A DNA stretch of 64,000 nt from Hyphomicrobiales bacterium (GTDB lineage: Bacteria; Pseudomonadota; Alphaproteobacteria; Rhizobiales; Aestuariivirgaceae): positions 1 through 64,000 of the forward strand of contig JANYHE010000115.1 of assembly GCA_025359215.1 (NCBI GenBank). Reading direction: 5' to 3'. Position 1 is the stretch's first letter. Each line of letters starts with the position of its first letter. This document shows, in pieces, positions 32,022-40,984 of the stretch. The notes under the pieces were generated by a model. The model was not told where the DNA came from. It worked only from the letters and a program-made list of their open reading frames with translations, and did not search any database. Made by a program: the position numbers and the translations under genes.

Positions 32022-32645
32022 TCACAGGGGTATCAGCTGCGAGGCCATTTTGTCATTAACATCATCACTTTCAGCCAAGCCTTTATTCACCCCAGCACGA
32101 TCCTCAGCACTACGATTCTGGCTCATTTTGCGCTTTCCTTCGAGTTTGGAAATGACCATGCGAATGCCGACGATGCCCTTGAGCTGTGACTGAATATAAG
32201 GTTCAGGCGCATCGCTCACGGCCCAAGGTTCGAGCCTTGGCTGCTCATGAAGGTTGGTCAATTTGTTCACAACATCAAGTAATCGGGCAGTGTCTTCAAA
32301 AAATTCAATCGCGCCATAAGCGTGCACGGTTATATAATTCCAAGTTGGCACCACTTTGCCTGTGTCCCGTTTGGTTTGATACCACGAAGGCGTAACATAG
32401 GCATCCGGCCCCATAAAAATCGCTAATGCATCGCCGATGGCTTTTGTGTTCCATTGCGAGTTGGCCCGCGCCAAATGGCCATAAAGAACGCCATGCGCAG
32501 CTTCCGTCTCATCCAAAAAAAGCGGCAAAGGTGTTGCCATTAATCCTTCGGATGTGGACGTAATAAAATTTGCCAACCGCGCATTTCGGATGTGTTCGAA
32601 AATCAATCTAATGTCATCTTCCCGAAAGGCTGGCGGACTATACAT
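32022..32645 (-). CDS. PaiB-type FMN-binding negative transcriptional regulator
   Basis: 207 residues with the FMN-binding split-barrel fold: MYSPPAFREDDIRLIFEHIR at the N-terminus, TPLPLFLD, GHLARANSQW and VPTWNYITVHAYG are the PaiB hallmarks. PaiB in Bacillus acts with PaiA on sporulation and degradative enzymes; in Gram-negatives the role is unknown, and reduced-flavin or haem handling has been suggested for the fold. Stands alone, downstream of the large permease/GGDEF/EAL gene. Confidence 0.85.
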   Translation of the reverse strand: MYSPPAFREDDIRLIFEHIRNARLANFITSTSEGLMATPLPLFLDETEAAHGVLYGHLARANSQWNTKAIGDALAIFMGPDAYVTPSWYQTKRDTGKVVPTWNYITVHAYGAIEFFEDTARLLDVVNKLTNLHEQPRLEPWAVSDAPEPYIQSQLKGIVGIRMVISKLEGKRKMSQNRSAEDRAGVNKGLAESDDVNDKMASQLIPL

Positions 32646-32786: not shown

Positions 32787-35700
32787 TTATGCAGTCAATT
32801 TTGCGAATATAGGGATATCAATCTTCGCGGTTCTCTTTTGTTTTCTCTTCTCAACCCCGTTATGTGTTGCTGTGACATTCAATTCGCTTGTGACGTCGGC
32901 GTAACTAGAAATCGGCGCAGGCTTGCCAAATAGATAGCCCTGAAATTCAAAACATCCCTCATCGACCAAAAATTCGCTTTCACTCTGAGTTTCAACTCCT
33001 TCTGCAATAACGGGTATGTTGAACGAGTTTCCCAGTGCAATAATGGCGCGCACAATTGCGGCGGATTTGGAGTTGACATCGGCACCTGACACAAAACTTC
33101 TATCAATTTTGATTTTGTCGAAGGGAAAGGATTGCAATGAAGACAATGACGAATAGCCAATGCCAAAATCATCCATCGCAATTTTAACGCCAAGCGCTTT
33201 GATGCGTCGCAAAATCGAAAGCGCGGTGAGATGATCTTTTATCAAAACCCCTTCAGTGATTTCCAGTTCAAGTCTCGAAGCAGCCAATCCAGTTTCCAAA
33301 AGAATTGAATGCACAAGGCCAACAACATCTCCATGTTGAAACTGAACAGGCGAAAGGTTGACTGCAATTGTCAGGGGAGTCGACCATTTCGCAGCTTCAC
33401 GGCAAGCTGAACGCAGAACCCATTCGCCAATTGCACCAATCAGACCATTTTGTTCAGCCAATACGATAAAAGTTTGCGGTGATACAAATCCACGTGTCGG
33501 ATGATGCCAGCGCAGTAATGCTTCAAAGCCAAATATTTTTCCGCATGAATCTGTTTGTGGTTGATAGTGCAAAGACAATTCTTCTTTGGCAATCGCAGAA
33601 CGCAAATCAGCGGTTAATGCATGTGAATCACGGACATGAACATCCATTTCCGGTTCGAACAACCGCAAATCCATGCGACCTTCCGCCTTGGCACGATAAA
33701 GCGCCGTATCGGCATTGCAAATCAGCGTATGAACGTCGGGGCCATCTTTTGGAAAAATGGCAATGCCAACACTTAACCCGATCCGCAATTGATGTTCGTC
33801 CAGTACAAAAAGCTCAGCTACTGTTGTCAGTAAGCGTTGACCAAGCCTTTCAACATCGACTTGCGCTGACAGCTTCGAAACGAGAATAAATTCATCTCCG
33901 CCCATACGAGCAAGATAATTATCGCCCGCTTCACGCTGCAATCGATGCGCAAGCTCACAAAGAAGCTCATCTCCTATGCCATGTCCGTATACATCGTTGA
34001 CCTCTTTGAAGTTATCAGCATCGAGGCAAAATACAGAAAACCTTTCGTTTTGGACAACTGAATGATCAAATACCTCTGTGATGTGCTTATTGAAAGCAAA
34101 GCGATTTGGCAGCCTTGTCAAAGCATCATGATGGGCCAAATATGTCATGTTTTCATATGAAGCGGTGAGCTCATTTCGAGCTCTGGAAAGATGTTTTCGG
34201 GCTTCGTTGAGGCCAAGTGCTGCGATGGCCACTTCATCCTGAAGCAGGTTGAAACTTTGTGCCATTTCACCTAGCTCGTCATTCGAGTAGATCAATACCG
34301 GTGAAATATTCACCGAAGTAGCGGCTGACTCAATTTCGCCTTTGCCAAGCGCAGTCATAGCACACGAAAAATCCCGCAAGGTTTCTGAAGTCAGTCGCTT
34401 TGCTGCACTGCTAACCTCTGTGGCAACATGTGCGATAATACCAGGCATCACCAAGCCAACGGTAATCGTAAGCAAAGCCACAACGACGAAAATATCTTCC
34501 AGGGCGGCAAGTAAAGCGGTGTGTTCTTTTGGTACGTTTCCTACAGCTAGAACATAACCTGCACCGTCAAGCACCAAAACAAGCAACATGGCACCTGTCA
34601 ATTTGAGATGGAGTGTCTGCGTAAAGGCCGGAAGCCCCTGTAGGCGTCTATCCTCAATTTTTCGCCAAGCGAAAAGTGCCGCCCCAGAATAGGCCATCGC
34701 AAGGCCGATGAGCACGGTTGGAAGTCCAAACTGTTGAAAGCCAAGTATCGCAGACAAGAGCCACACCATCGAGGCAAAAAGACCAAGTCCAATTGTGCCG
34801 CGCGGAGCACGGTAGGGACGATGGGCATTTGGTAAATCCCGCCGTAAAAGCCAGGCCGCCACGTTTGGTAAACAGACGGCGATAAGATAGGTAAAATTGG
34901 CGGCCGCAATCAGCCAGATCGGATCACCCATGAGCAGGAATATGATCGCAAAGGTAGCTGTGAGAAGTGTAGCTGCCCATGGACAATCAGTCTTTGAACG
35001 CCACGCCAAAAAGCGGGGTAAGAGGCCATCTTCACTGAGTTGTGATAACGAACGAGCGGCACCAGCGAGGGGTTGCATAGTGCCATGAAACATATTGAGC
35101 ATCATGAACCAAATTGCAGCGGCCTTTCCGAAACCACCAAACAATGGGGCAAAAACCGGACCAAGCGAAACCGCAAGATCTTTGCCCAGCGGTTCCGGGC
35201 CGAGCACACCCAGCCAAACTATCGGAATAATTATAAAATAAACACCCGCCATAGCGGCACTTGCCAGCATAGCGCGGGGCACGTTGCGATTGGGATCGAT
35301 GGTTTCTCCAACGTGGCAGGTGGCGGCTTCAAAAGCAGGAGCGGCAAAGCCAATTATATACAAGCCAGCCATAACTGACGTGAGATCGCCGAACCAACCT
35401 GTGAAAGGCGAAATCAACTTAAAATTCGTGGCCTGGTGCCAATCAACACTACCGGTGAATATAGGCACTATTGAGGAAATTAGAGCCAATAAAGCCGAAA
35501 CACCCGCAACCGGTATCATCAACCGCGTAACCCACTTGATGCCGCATAAATTCACACCCGTGAAAAGCAACACCAAAGCACAGGCCACCGCTTCAACAGG
35601 AAGTTCAGGCAAATACCACTGTTGAATGGCCGAAGCAGATAGGAGTGCAGTTAAGCCGCAGGTCGGCACCCACCCCCACCAATAGCATGTTCCAGCCAAG

Positions 35701-36014
35701 CAGGAGAGAACTGCACTGTATGGTCGAAAAGCTTCCGAGCATGCCGCAGCAATGCCACCAACGCGGTTAGGCCACATGAGAACGAGTTCGGTCCACGCGG
35801 GAGCAGCAGCCCAACTCAACAGCACACCAATAATCAGCAGTGGTACAGCGGCACTTCCCTGACCTAAAATATTACCTTGCCCAACAAACAACGCAGCAAT
35901 CAGGAAAAGACTTTGATTGCTTCCACCCATTGCTAAGGCAGTCGTCCCAACCCATCCCATTGATCGGTAGTGGGGTGAAGTCGAATCTTTATTAACAAGA
36001 CGATTAGGGCTCAC
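32787..36014 (-). CDS. Amino-acid permease (APC family) fused to GGDEF and EAL domains
   Basis: 1075 residues in one frame. Residues 18-450 form a complete APC-type amino-acid/polyamine transporter of about 12 helices (GWVGTTALAMGGSNQSLFLI at the start, FAAPAFEAATCHVGET in the middle). Two further helices lie at about 472-492 and 505-530, then a HAMP-like linker and short coiled coil to 625. A diguanylate cyclase domain follows with intact GGDEF at 705-709 but no clear RxxD inhibitory site. The EAL phosphodiesterase shows EALLRW at 831, DDFGIGYSSL at 948 and EGVET at 1005. The arrangement suggests substrate transport or binding linked to c-di-GMP turnover at the membrane. Confidence 0.88.
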   Translation of the reverse strand: MSPNRLVNKDSTSPHYRSMGWVGTTALAMGGSNQSLFLIAALFVGQGNILGQGSAAVPLLIIGVLLSWAAAPAWTELVLMWPNRVGGIAAACSEAFRPYSAVLSCLAGTCYWWGWVPTCGLTALLSASAIQQWYLPELPVEAVACALVLLFTGVNLCGIKWVTRLMIPVAGVSALLALISSIVPIFTGSVDWHQATNFKLISPFTGWFGDLTSVMAGLYIIGFAAPAFEAATCHVGETIDPNRNVPRAMLASAAMAGVYFIIIPIVWLGVLGPEPLGKDLAVSLGPVFAPLFGGFGKAAAIWFMMLNMFHGTMQPLAGAARSLSQLSEDGLLPRFLAWRSKTDCPWAATLLTATFAIIFLLMGDPIWLIAAANFTYLIAVCLPNVAAWLLRRDLPNAHRPYRAPRGTIGLGLFASMVWLLSAILGFQQFGLPTVLIGLAMAYSGAALFAWRKIEDRRLQGLPAFTQTLHLKLTGAMLLVLVLDGAGYVLAVGNVPKEHTALLAALEDIFVVVALLTITVGLVMPGIIAHVATEVSSAAKRLTSETLRDFSCAMTALGKGEIESAATSVNISPVLIYSNDELGEMAQSFNLLQDEVAIAALGLNEARKHLSRARNELTASYENMTYLAHHDALTRLPNRFAFNKHITEVFDHSVVQNERFSVFCLDADNFKEVNDVYGHGIGDELLCELAHRLQREAGDNYLARMGGDEFILVSKLSAQVDVERLGQRLLTTVAELFVLDEHQLRIGLSVGIAIFPKDGPDVHTLICNADTALYRAKAEGRMDLRLFEPEMDVHVRDSHALTADLRSAIAKEELSLHYQPQTDSCGKIFGFEALLRWHHPTRGFVSPQTFIVLAEQNGLIGAIGEWVLRSACREAAKWSTPLTIAVNLSPVQFQHGDVVGLVHSILLETGLAASRLELEITEGVLIKDHLTALSILRRIKALGVKIAMDDFGIGYSSLSSLQSFPFDKIKIDRSFVSGADVNSKSAAIVRAIIALGNSFNIPVIAEGVETQSESEFLVDEGCFEFQGYLFGKPAPISSYADVTSELNVTATHNGVEKRKQKRTAKIDIPIFAKLTA

Positions 36015-38131: not shown

Positions 38132-39007
38132 ATGCGTACGTTTGGCAAAACATGGTTTAAACAAGGGTCATTGATCTCCGATTACGGCGACAATTTCGGC
38201 CAAGGTGTGCGCCAGCAGAAGCAGGCCATTGCCCTTGAGGCAGCCAAAGTGGATGCAGAACTGGCGTCCAAAGCTAAATCCGAATTCATCGCCAATATGA
38301 GCCATGAGCTGCGAACACCGCTCAATGCGATTATCGGATTTTCCGATATGCTTTCGACCAAAATCGTCACTCACCCCGATAAAGTCGTTCAATATGCCGC
38401 TTACATTCAGCAAGCGGCAGAACATCTTCTCGCTTTGATCAACGGAATTCTTGATGTTTCAAAGATTCAAGCCGGAAAACTCAGTGTCGATCCTGAACCA
38501 ATCACATTGGAAACCGTGCTCAGTCCGTGCTTGCTGATAACTGAGTCCAAAGCCAAAGAAAAAAATCTCAGCATCGAGTCACACGTGAATGATCGCTTGC
38601 CCTTGCTGCTCGCTGATCCGCTGCGCTTGAAACAAATTCTCATCAACCTGCTCAGCAATGCCACCAAATTCACGCCCGAATGGGGCCGCATCCGTGTCGA
38701 TGCAAATGTGAAGTCGGAAGATTTTGCCGCCATCAGCGTCACAGATTCCGGCCCCGGCATGAGCCCCGAAGAAATTGATACAGCCATGAGCCCTTTTGGC
38801 CAGGTTGAATCAGGCTTCAACAAACGCCACGAAGGCACCGGCCTTGGTTTGCCAATTGCCTTTGCGTTGGCCAGGTTGCACGGCGGCGATTTGACAATTC
38901 ATTCAACCAAAGGGGCTGGCACACGCGTGACAGTCATCATCCCCTTGGCCACCACCAGCAAACTTGCCAACTTTACACCAACACCAACCAGTTTAAGTCT
39001 CCAATAA
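38132..39007 (+). CDS. Soluble sensor histidine kinase (HisKA-HATPase), no sensor domain
   Basis: 291 residues. The phosphoacceptor H-box [13 protein letters not shown] places His58; the ATPase domain has the N-box NLLSNATKF near 173, G1 in DSGPGMS and G2 in GTGLGLPIA. There is no membrane helix and no PAS or other input domain ahead of the H-box, only about 45 residues of mostly charged sequence. Relatives in this group are similar to the cytosolic kinase part of PleC/DivJ-like proteins. No response regulator is nearby. It ends 12 bp before the HerA-type gene and is probably cotranscribed with it. Confidence 0.85.
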
Positions 39008-39019
39008 AGGCTCCCCCAA

Positions 39020-40984
39020 ATGACGACGGCCGCATTCAACCCCATCGCACATGACTTCCGCGCCAAGATCGTTGCCGAAGATGCCGAGCGCATGGGCCGA
39101 ATTGTGGCCGTGACGGGCGCCCACGCGATTATTTTGCTCGATGCTGTTGATGGCCATTTCGATGCCAGCCACCGCGGGGCAGAAATTGGAACTTTGATGA
39201 AGGTCGAAACTACGAGCTCTGTTACACTTGCTTTGATTTCCGCGCTCAGTTCTCCCATGCCAACCCACAGCTCGACCGAAAAAGAACTACGCATTGTCGA
39301 AGTTGAATTTATTGGTGAGTTGCCCAAAGATGAAATGGGCATTGCACAATCCTTCCGCCGCGGCGTTTCGAGCTATCCATCATTGGGTGATGTGGTCTAC
39401 CGCGCCAACCGCACTGAATTGGCCATGGCCTATGCTTGCGATGCAGATACGGCAGTGCGTGTGGGCCACATTCAACAAGACCCCACCATTCCAGCCATGA
39501 TTAAAGTGGATGAAATGTTGGGCAAGCATTTTGCCATTCTGGGCACAACCGGCACAGGCAAATCCTGCACAGTGGCGCTTATTTTGCGCCGCATTCTTGA
39601 TAAAAATCCGCAAGCCCACATCCTGCTGCTGGATGTGCACCGCGAATATGCACAGTCTTTCAAAGGCATGTCAGAAATCATAACACCCGATAATATGGCC
39701 TTGCCATTTTGGTTGTTGAACTTTGACGAAGCTGTAGAGATTCTGATCGGCCAGCATGCTGGCCGCGAAACTGATATTGAAGTGCTGCGCGAAATCATTC
39801 CCATCGCTAAAGCAAGATATATGGGCAATATGCGCCGTGATAAAAGCGGCGCATTGGTGCGCGGCCGCGATGCGCTGGTGGATAACAATATCGGCGTTGA
39901 CACTCCCATTCCCTACCGCACGTCTGATCTTACAGGCGTGCTTGAAGAATATATCGGCAAACTTGAACTGCGCGGCGAACTCGCACCCTATAAGCGCATC
40001 AAAGCCCGCATCGAAGCCGTATCGCGTGATCCGCGTTATGCGTTCATGTTTGGCTCGCTTACTGTGCAAGATAACATGGCCCAAGTTTTGGCAAGACTGT
40101 TCCGCATTCCGGTGAATGGCAAACCGATTGCTATTCTTGAACTCGGCGGCTTGCCATCAGAAATCATTAACGTGGTTGTGTCCGTGCTCGCTCGCCTTGC
40201 TTTCGATTTTGGCGTGTGGAGTGCAGGCAAAGTGCCCATCACATTCGTGTGCGAAGAAGCCCACAGATATGTTCCGAATGATAAAACCACAGGCTTTGAG
40301 CCCACTAAGCGCGCCATCAGCCGCATTGCCAAAGAAGGCCGTAAATATGGCGTATCGCTCTGCATCGTAACCCAACGCCCTGCAGAACTTGACCCAACGA
40401 TCCTCTCGCAATGCAACACCATTTTCTCCATGCGCCTCACCAATGAGCGCGACCAGGAAATTCTCCGTGCCGGCATTTCCGATGCTGCTGCATCGCTTTT
40501 AGAATTCATGCCAACCATGGGCGCAGGCGAAGCCATCACCTTTGGTGAAGGCGTGGCATTGCCCACGCGCATTAAGTTTGATCTTCTGCCCGCCAATGAA
40601 TTGCCGCGCAGCAACACGGCCAGCTTCACCAAAAATTGGGCGAAAGACTTGCCCGATGATACATTCTTGCAAGAGGTTGTCAGCCGGTGGCGCGCGCAAA
40701 CTTATAATCCCGATAGCGCAGGCTATTCCATTGATGAAACTGCAGCCACCGCTGAAGTTGCAGCGCCCCATTCACCAATTGCCGCACCACCGGTGATGCA
40801 ACCACGCCCCACCATCCGCCGCGATAGCTTCATCAACCCACCCGGCGGCGTATCTGCAGCCCAGCCGCAACCCTCAAGCTTCAGCCGCATGCCCCCTATC
40901 ACCCCGGAAATGCCAGTCCCCGTTCCCACCCCACCCACTCAACAGCCAAGCCTGGCTAGTTTGATCAAACAGTTCCGAAGCTAA
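39020..40984 (+). CDS. HerA-type hexameric ATPase (DUF87 helicase-like)
   Basis: 654 residues. The N-terminal beta-barrel (HAS-barrel-like, 1-150) precedes Walker A GTTGTGKS at 185-192; Walker B ITFVCEEAHRY lies near 405-415, and the C-terminal Arg-rich AISRIAKEGRKYGVSLCIVT region is the FtsK/HerA sensor. The last 90 residues are proline-rich and probably disordered. HerA proteins translocate DNA, in archaea together with the nuclease NurA; no NurA is seen here. It follows the histidine kinase with 12 bp between. Confidence 0.87.
   Translation: MTTAAFNPIAHDFRAKIVAEDAERMGRIVAVTGAHAIILLDAVDGHFDASHRGAEIGTLMKVETTSSVTLALISALSSPMPTHSSTEKELRIVEVEFIGELPKDEMGIAQSFRRGVSSYPSLGDVVYRANRTELAMAYACDADTAVRVGHIQQDPTIPAMIKVDEMLGKHFAILGTTGTGKSCTVALILRRILDKNPQAHILLLDVHREYAQSFKGMSEIITPDNMALPFWLLNFDEAVEILIGQHAGRETDIEVLREIIPIAKARYMGNMRRDKSGALVRGRDALVDNNIGVDTPIPYRTSDLTGVLEEYIGKLELRGELAPYKRIKARIEAVSRDPRYAFMFGSLTVQDNMAQVLARLFRIPVNGKPIAILELGGLPSEIINVVVSVLARLAFDFGVWSAGKVPITFVCEEAHRYVPNDKTTGFEPTKRAISRIAKEGRKYGVSLCIVTQRPAELDPTILSQCNTIFSMRLTNERDQEILRAGISDAAASLLEFMPTMGAGEAITFGEGVALPTRIKFDLLPANELPRSNTASFTKNWAKDLPDDTFLQEVVSRWRAQTYNPDSAGYSIDETAATAEVAAPHSPIAAPPVMQPRPTIRRDSFINPPGGVSAAQPQPSSFSRMPPITPEMPVPVPTPPTQQPSLASLIKQFRS

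Follow-up and report, generated by a model that had tools for sequence, protein, structure and literature searches.

We lean towards reading the protein encoded at 32787..36014, on the minus strand of the window (the whole 64,000-nucleotide stretch analysed), as a one-chain membrane receptor derived from an APC-fold transporter, in which ligand binding would be converted into a c-di-GMP output. The open frame and its Pfam matches give 1075 residues comprising a permease, two further transmembrane helices, a HAMP-like linker, a GGDEF domain and an EAL domain. A transporter fold and a signalling output share one chain, as in a transceptor, in which a ligand would also change the activity of the output. 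By sequence comparison, residues 1–620 are a discrete module, 58–79% identical to the query in records labelled as six phyla. As judged from the alignments, this module forms a family whose outputs are of several kinds, a point that the sequence-only reading had missed.

The 1075-codon frame (36014..32787, minus strand) starts with GTG, and the plus-strand reading of 32787–36014 was stop-rich in the ORF check, which sets the coding strand as the minus strand; all features of the protein lie on it. AA_permease_2 matched residues 20–420 (34755..35957) with an E-value of 2.8e-36 and 125.8 bits, above the gathering cut-off of 27. HAMP matched residues 572–594 with an E-value of 1.5e-4 and 22.4 bits, below the cut-off of 25, within a HAMP-like linker of about residues 531–600 (34215..34424) also seen in slices of the relatives. 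The GGDEF domain (residues 627–781, 33672..34136) and the EAL domain (residues 803–1032, 32919..33608) gave E-values of 8.7e-39 and 1.3e-70, respectively. The sensory module, residues 1–620, covers 34155..36014 and was delimited from the relatives' alignments as the unit shared with other outputs. The single frame holding all these parts, as first proposed, was confirmed by the ORF, Pfam and AlphaFold2 results.

The output half closely matched ordinary GGDEF-EAL proteins (5m3c, 4rnh MorA, MucR), from which the query differs in its input half. The GGDEF motif lies at residues 705–709 and the EAL motif at 831–833. Across 21 related GGDEF-EAL rows, which represent 18 proteins because L039, L040 and L042 are the same as L044, L048 and L050, GGDEF was intact in all but L051, which has GSDEF. 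The EAL check used eleven positions, which we took to be the active-site residues, and all eleven were invariant in the 21 rows. Judged from these residues, the active sites of a bifunctional GGDEF-EAL enzyme appear to be kept, in agreement with the earlier claim of two intact motifs. The claimed lack of RxxD also held: the query shows A..N at this site, the arginine position (−9) being alanine, and arginine occurred in none of the 21 rows. When the 68 further genomes of the family to which the window belongs were scanned, every match listed (E ≤ 1e-100) started at residue 571 or later, and therefore just the output half was met there. Five frames of 576–800 aa in this family (L009–L013) carry a GGDEF-EAL part 49–53% identical to that of the query, without a permease match.

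Residues 1–620 were modelled by AlphaFold2 on a 37-row alignment with a pLDDT of 82.9 and a pTM of 0.81. The model breaks TM1 at residues 33–34 and TM6 at residue 225, and places helices beyond the permease at 468–492, 499–557 and then 580–619. The whole-protein model was poorer (pLDDT 69.0, pTM 0.42), with an unreliable domain arrangement and no TM1 or TM6 break, the score at those sites being below 50; it served solely to judge helix continuity. In Foldseek against the PDB, the 1–620 model matched APC/LAT carriers at 16–21% identity: BasC (E-value 6.7e-13, TM-score 0.78 by target), y+LAT2, AdiC and LAT1. The permease half is thus predicted to adopt a LeuT-type fold in which TM1 and TM6 are broken. 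The positive-inside rule was satisfied, with one to five K/R in the six cytosolic loops and none or one in the seven opposite loops. Inside the TM1 break motif GGSNQ (residues 30–34, 35913..35927), Gly30, Gly31, Asn33 and Gln34 were unchanged across the 37 rows, as was the TM3 motif YWWGW (residues 111–115, 35670..35684). TM6 and the loop after it (residues 217–237, GLYIIGFAAPAFE...E, 35304..35366) were marked out from the alignment, the model and the conservation profile.

Behind the permease, TM13 (residues 468–492) and TM14 with its cytosolic extension (residues 499–557), together at 34344..34613, showed conservation values of 0.83 and 0.79, respectively. TM14 ran unbroken as a single helix to residue 557 in both models. 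The hairpin between the two helices is of about six residues in the 1–620 model and is variable (conservation 0.39), so the permease is the sole candidate for a periplasmic sensor. Of 30 C-terminal slices taken from the relatives, some of which start within HAMP, 17 exceeded the Pfam cut-off for HAMP. The earlier suggestion that the two extra helices serve as a coupling element gains support from the model and the conservation, since they are conserved, joined by a short variable hairpin, and would lead into HAMP.

The whole architecture recurred at 49–70% identity in 17 aligned relatives; alignment A2 has 18 rows, without L078 and L086. A species-genome scan with residues 1–620 found 45 loci, 44 at 58–79% identity (L043–L086) and a weak linker match, L087. 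The 44 loci comprised 18 with GGDEF-EAL (L043–L051, L056, L066, L070, L075, L077, L078, which is cut inside GGDEF, L079, L080 and L086, which also has GAF), two with PAS-GGDEF-HD-GYP (L064, L073), 22 with a kinase (L052–L055, L057, L058, L060–L063, L065, L067–L069, L071, L072, L074, L076, L081, L083–L085), and two at contig ends (L059, L082) whose output was not readable. A signalling output was present in all 42 loci with a readable output. The 22 kinase-type loci had HATPase_c in 22, HisKA in 20 and a receiver in 17; L063 was absent from automatic gene picking and the neighbour counts, and its kinase was read from Pfam. A further kinase-type member, L107, was the sole match in plasmid records and lies on a complete 1.09 Mb Paraburkholderia replicon typed non-mobilizable. 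L073 contains no literal GGDEF or GGEEF motif. The 37-row alignment (A1) omits L049, L059, L071, L075, L081, L082, L084 and L085, which are cut, broken or partial, as well as L087 (a 32% match in the linker alone) and L039–L042. The lowest pairwise identity among its rows was 55%. On a quick module tree the three output classes needed four changes (minimum 2; shuffled mean 13.9), but the well-supported branches force just two, for kinase or GGDEF-EAL.

The suspicion that the fusion is an assembly artefact was not borne out. The architecture recurs in relatives, and among the records with the same fusion are some whose titles do not mark them as MAGs, from Hansschlegelia quercus, Methylocapsa palsarum and Mesorhizobium, which rules the artefact out. 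The Mesorhizobium WSM3859 match (L075) came in two pieces (residues 4–107 and 92–1068), perhaps through a shifted frame, and this gene may be broken. Record titles spanned Pseudomonadota, Myxococcota, Armatimonadota, Verrucomicrobiota, Chloroflexota and Actinomycetota; all records outside Pseudomonadota are MAGs, so binning errors are possible there. In L084, titled a Klebsiella pneumoniae MAG, the module and the kinase lie in two overlapping frames, and the title could stem from faulty binning. Viral cargo was rejected, as the viral scan with the module gave no relative. The module occurred in 4 of 396 other genomes of the order and in 1 of 384 other genomes of the class (G756, in pieces). 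The family was sharply bounded: across 398 genomes of the phylum, the next-best permease scored 94.6 bits against 1116.7 bits for the query, and this permease is the TMAO-permease locus of the window genome itself.

The conservation pattern bears on what the permease half does. In the 21 GGDEF-EAL rows, identity to the query was 63–81% for the permease, 51–77% for TM13–TM14, 44–71% for HAMP, 24–48% for the signalling helix, 32–59% for GGDEF and 29–72% for EAL, and the permease exceeded both GGDEF and EAL in all 21 rows (18 proteins). By helix, in a profile without the near-copies L074 and L078, TM1, TM3, TM6, TM8 and TM10 were the most conserved (0.85–0.87), followed by TM2 and TM13 (0.83), and TM4, TM5, TM9 and TM11 the least (0.63–0.72); the loop at residues 81–100 (0.88) equalled any segment. 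In LeuT folds, TM1, TM3, TM6, TM8 and TM10 line the substrate path. A permease that acts as a membrane anchor or localiser alone is the default reading and has no specific support. An anchor would not require 63–81% identity in the permease against 32–59% in GGDEF, nor a conservation peak in the core helices. We rejected this possibility, which had been named as an outcome that would undo the proposal, as very improbable on these two comparisons. Because conservation exceeded that of GGDEF and EAL throughout and peaked in the core helices, the permease half is probably a ligand-binding input. The sensing role first proposed for it is supported by this pattern and by the same module sitting on unlike outputs, as far as sequence comparison can carry it.

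Such an input may still transport or may only bind, as Ks-Amt5 does, and some of its motifs bear on this. The TM1 G-S-G, which we take to be the amino-acid binding motif of APC permeases, was replaced by G-S-N in 36 of the 37 rows and by G-I-N in L073. Ala174, which aligns with the TM5 lysine of LAT-type carriers, was A, G, V or T across the rows. A true transceptor would import its solute, and its transport cycle, beyond binding alone, would set c-di-GMP. The missing TM5 lysine argues against this reading, which we regard as unlikely. The APC fold, the broken TM1 and TM6 of the model and the conserved core helices would suit it; the nearest named family, TMAO permease, represented by L090, also lacks the TM1 G-S-G, so the missing motif need not mean loss of transport. 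By analogy, CbrA both transports and signals (PMC7096432). Against it, no free-standing (unfused) member was found in the species-genome, order, class or phylum (398 genomes) scans, which suits a dedicated receptor. As this importer family was found here solely fused to signalling parts, the protein probably represents a transporter that has been turned into a receptor.

In the receptor that we favour, a small organic solute, perhaps a methylated amine, would occupy the cavity at the centre of the permease. The resulting conformational change would pass to TM13–TM14, which run into HAMP and the signalling helix, and the GGDEF/EAL balance would be reset, altering the c-di-GMP level, with EAL breakdown expected as the main regulated activity. 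The reverse direction was also considered, in which the permease is a functional transporter gated by the cytosolic GGDEF-EAL half or, where the module carries a kinase, by the phosphorelay. LapD and similar receptors, in which HAMP is coupled to a degenerate GGDEF-EAL pair, signal inside-out and could serve as a precedent. Unlike in LapD, however, the checked GGDEF and EAL residues are conserved here, and the same module bears histidine kinases, which normally signal outward from the sensor. Inside-out control is therefore quite improbable. One point against the favoured receptor mechanism is the behaviour of CbrA, its nearest characterised analogue: the activities of the purified kinase were unaffected by the transported ligand (PMC7096432).

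The direction of the output was approached through conservation and neighbouring genes. Conservation was higher in EAL than in GGDEF for 20 of 21 rows, two module versions end in HD-GYP, and some kinase versions have REC-HD-GYP (L053, L072) or REC-EAL (L057, L107) adjoining or one gene off. On these grounds the regulated activity may be mainly c-di-GMP breakdown by EAL. This sequence-based suggestion is weak, because c-di-GMP genes were not enriched beside kinase-type loci (3 of 37 adjacent vs. 5 of 146 other genes, p = 0.20) and GGDEF is also intact. Across all loci the counts were 3 of 76 vs. 11 of 310 (p = 0.54), again without enrichment. A rule that kinase-type loci adjoin c-di-GMP genes failed statistically on the former comparison. 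The two Paraburkholderia loci, L057 (6085–13696) and L107 (6166–13543), share the order kinase-REC, module-kinase-REC, REC-EAL and REC. Upstream of the module gene in L077 (1397–4123) and L078 (2578–5328), one protein carries PAS, GGDEF and EAL followed by the ATPase domain of a histidine kinase, assigned by Pfam and our own models in L077 and by our own models in L078.

The ligand was first taken to be an amino acid or polyamine, from the Pfam label. The NCBIfam scores did not bear this out: the nearest family of the query module was TMAO permease (NF053774) at 132.9 bits, short of the cut-off of 690 and matched only over profile positions 147–476, and the best amino-acid family reached 65.1 bits. 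TMAO permease was closest in all four module rows tested (113–145 bits; next best 57–72), and the TM1 G-S-N likewise does not support the amino-acid assignment. L090, the TMAO permease of the window's genome (819.6 bits), has CNWFAWSP in TM3 compared with CYWWGWVP in the module. A TMAO permease above the cut-off was present in 4 of 6 module genomes vs. 30 of 199 order genomes, a comparison that includes three module genomes in the latter and ignores kinship. Six genomes of genus g43 have a TMAO permease, and just one (G176) has the module. These hints, suggestive at most, make a methylated amine the best guess. No receptor role is described for the TMAO permease family. The broader proposal, a widespread, horizontally moved receptor class with a TMAO-permease-like APC input, swappable one- and two-component outputs largely on c-di-GMP, and a methylated amine as the signal, is a tentative one that we consider doubtful as a whole.

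Between rlmE and guaB of the window, labels that come from the reading frames, lie the fusion and a PaiB-like gene for an FMN-binding protein (32022–32645, minus strand; FMN_bind_2, 195.7 bits). The same-genus rlmE comparison matched 35 of 37 genomes and gave loci for 12, the window's own included. In three of the 11 others (L109, L118, L119), rlmE is directly followed by guaB without the fusion or the PaiB-like gene; the remaining eight have neither the fusion nor guaB within 1.5 kb. The fusion was absent from the 36 other genomes of the genus, some of which are incomplete. The three direct rlmE-guaB junctions and this absence suggest, from gene order, that the gene was gained in this lineage, loss being the alternative. 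Composition differed mildly from the six neighbours, with a GC of 0.484 (neighbours 0.484–0.550) and a GC3 of 0.437 (0.470–0.587). Recurrent neighbours naming a ligand were not found; besides signalling genes, only two families recurred, each at three of the 45 loci, the window counted among them. Further along the window, a frame of 291 aa that contains the ATPase domain of a histidine kinase (38132–39007, plus strand) adjoins a putative HerA-type ATPase frame (39020–40984).

The same idea is known with other folds and linkers. The SLC5-STAC histidine kinases (CbrA, CrbS, MxtR, RpuS) likewise hold a whole secondary transporter and a signalling output in one chain, and CbrA transports histidine (PMC7096432, PMC13022988, PMC7918813). 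The query differs in having AA_permease_2, with no SLC5 among its Pfam matches (E ≤ 1), and two extra helices with HAMP, apparently in place of STAC. STAC was likewise not among its Pfam matches, although Pfam may hold no STAC model, and HAMP was found instead. These kinases end in a kinase and the query in GGDEF-EAL, though 22 relatives of the query also end in kinases. In the ammonium sensor kinase Ks-Amt5 (PMC5764959), a transporter fold likewise serves as the receptor part of a chain that also contains the kinase, but Ks-Amt5 differs by its Amt fold, its direct coupling without HAMP, its kinase output and its binding without transport. In the 5TMR or S-component-type receptors, a membrane fold related to transport is attached to various outputs, including GGDEF and EAL (PMC11109136); theirs is another fold than that of the module and not a secondary transporter. 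The S-component fold is named the first prokaryotic transceptors in PMC11109136, where CbrA is not counted owing to the soluble domain that bridges it. PMC13022988 calls CbrA 'a rare transceptor' and transporter-based receptors rare in bacteria. Two surveys that cover c-di-GMP proteins (PMC9756655, PMC5845226) use neither permease nor transporter as a word in their main texts. Among the matches listed from open-licence literature, which covers few subscription journals, there was no description of a fusion between an APC permease and either GGDEF/EAL or a kinase; this input fold and range of outputs are apparently undescribed.

One 620-residue module joined to c-di-GMP enzymes or to kinases amounts to a natural output swap on a constant input. 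For the question of how signalling domains are driven by transport folds, TM13–TM14–HAMP offers a concrete candidate for the coupling path. The protein would also add a class of input to c-di-GMP signalling, because permease, symporter and transceptor are words absent from the main text of the review of c-di-GMP stimuli (PMC8846402). If the broader, doubtful proposal were true, bacteria would sense a methylated amine in their surroundings by means of a receptor shaped like a transporter, whose outputs can be exchanged.
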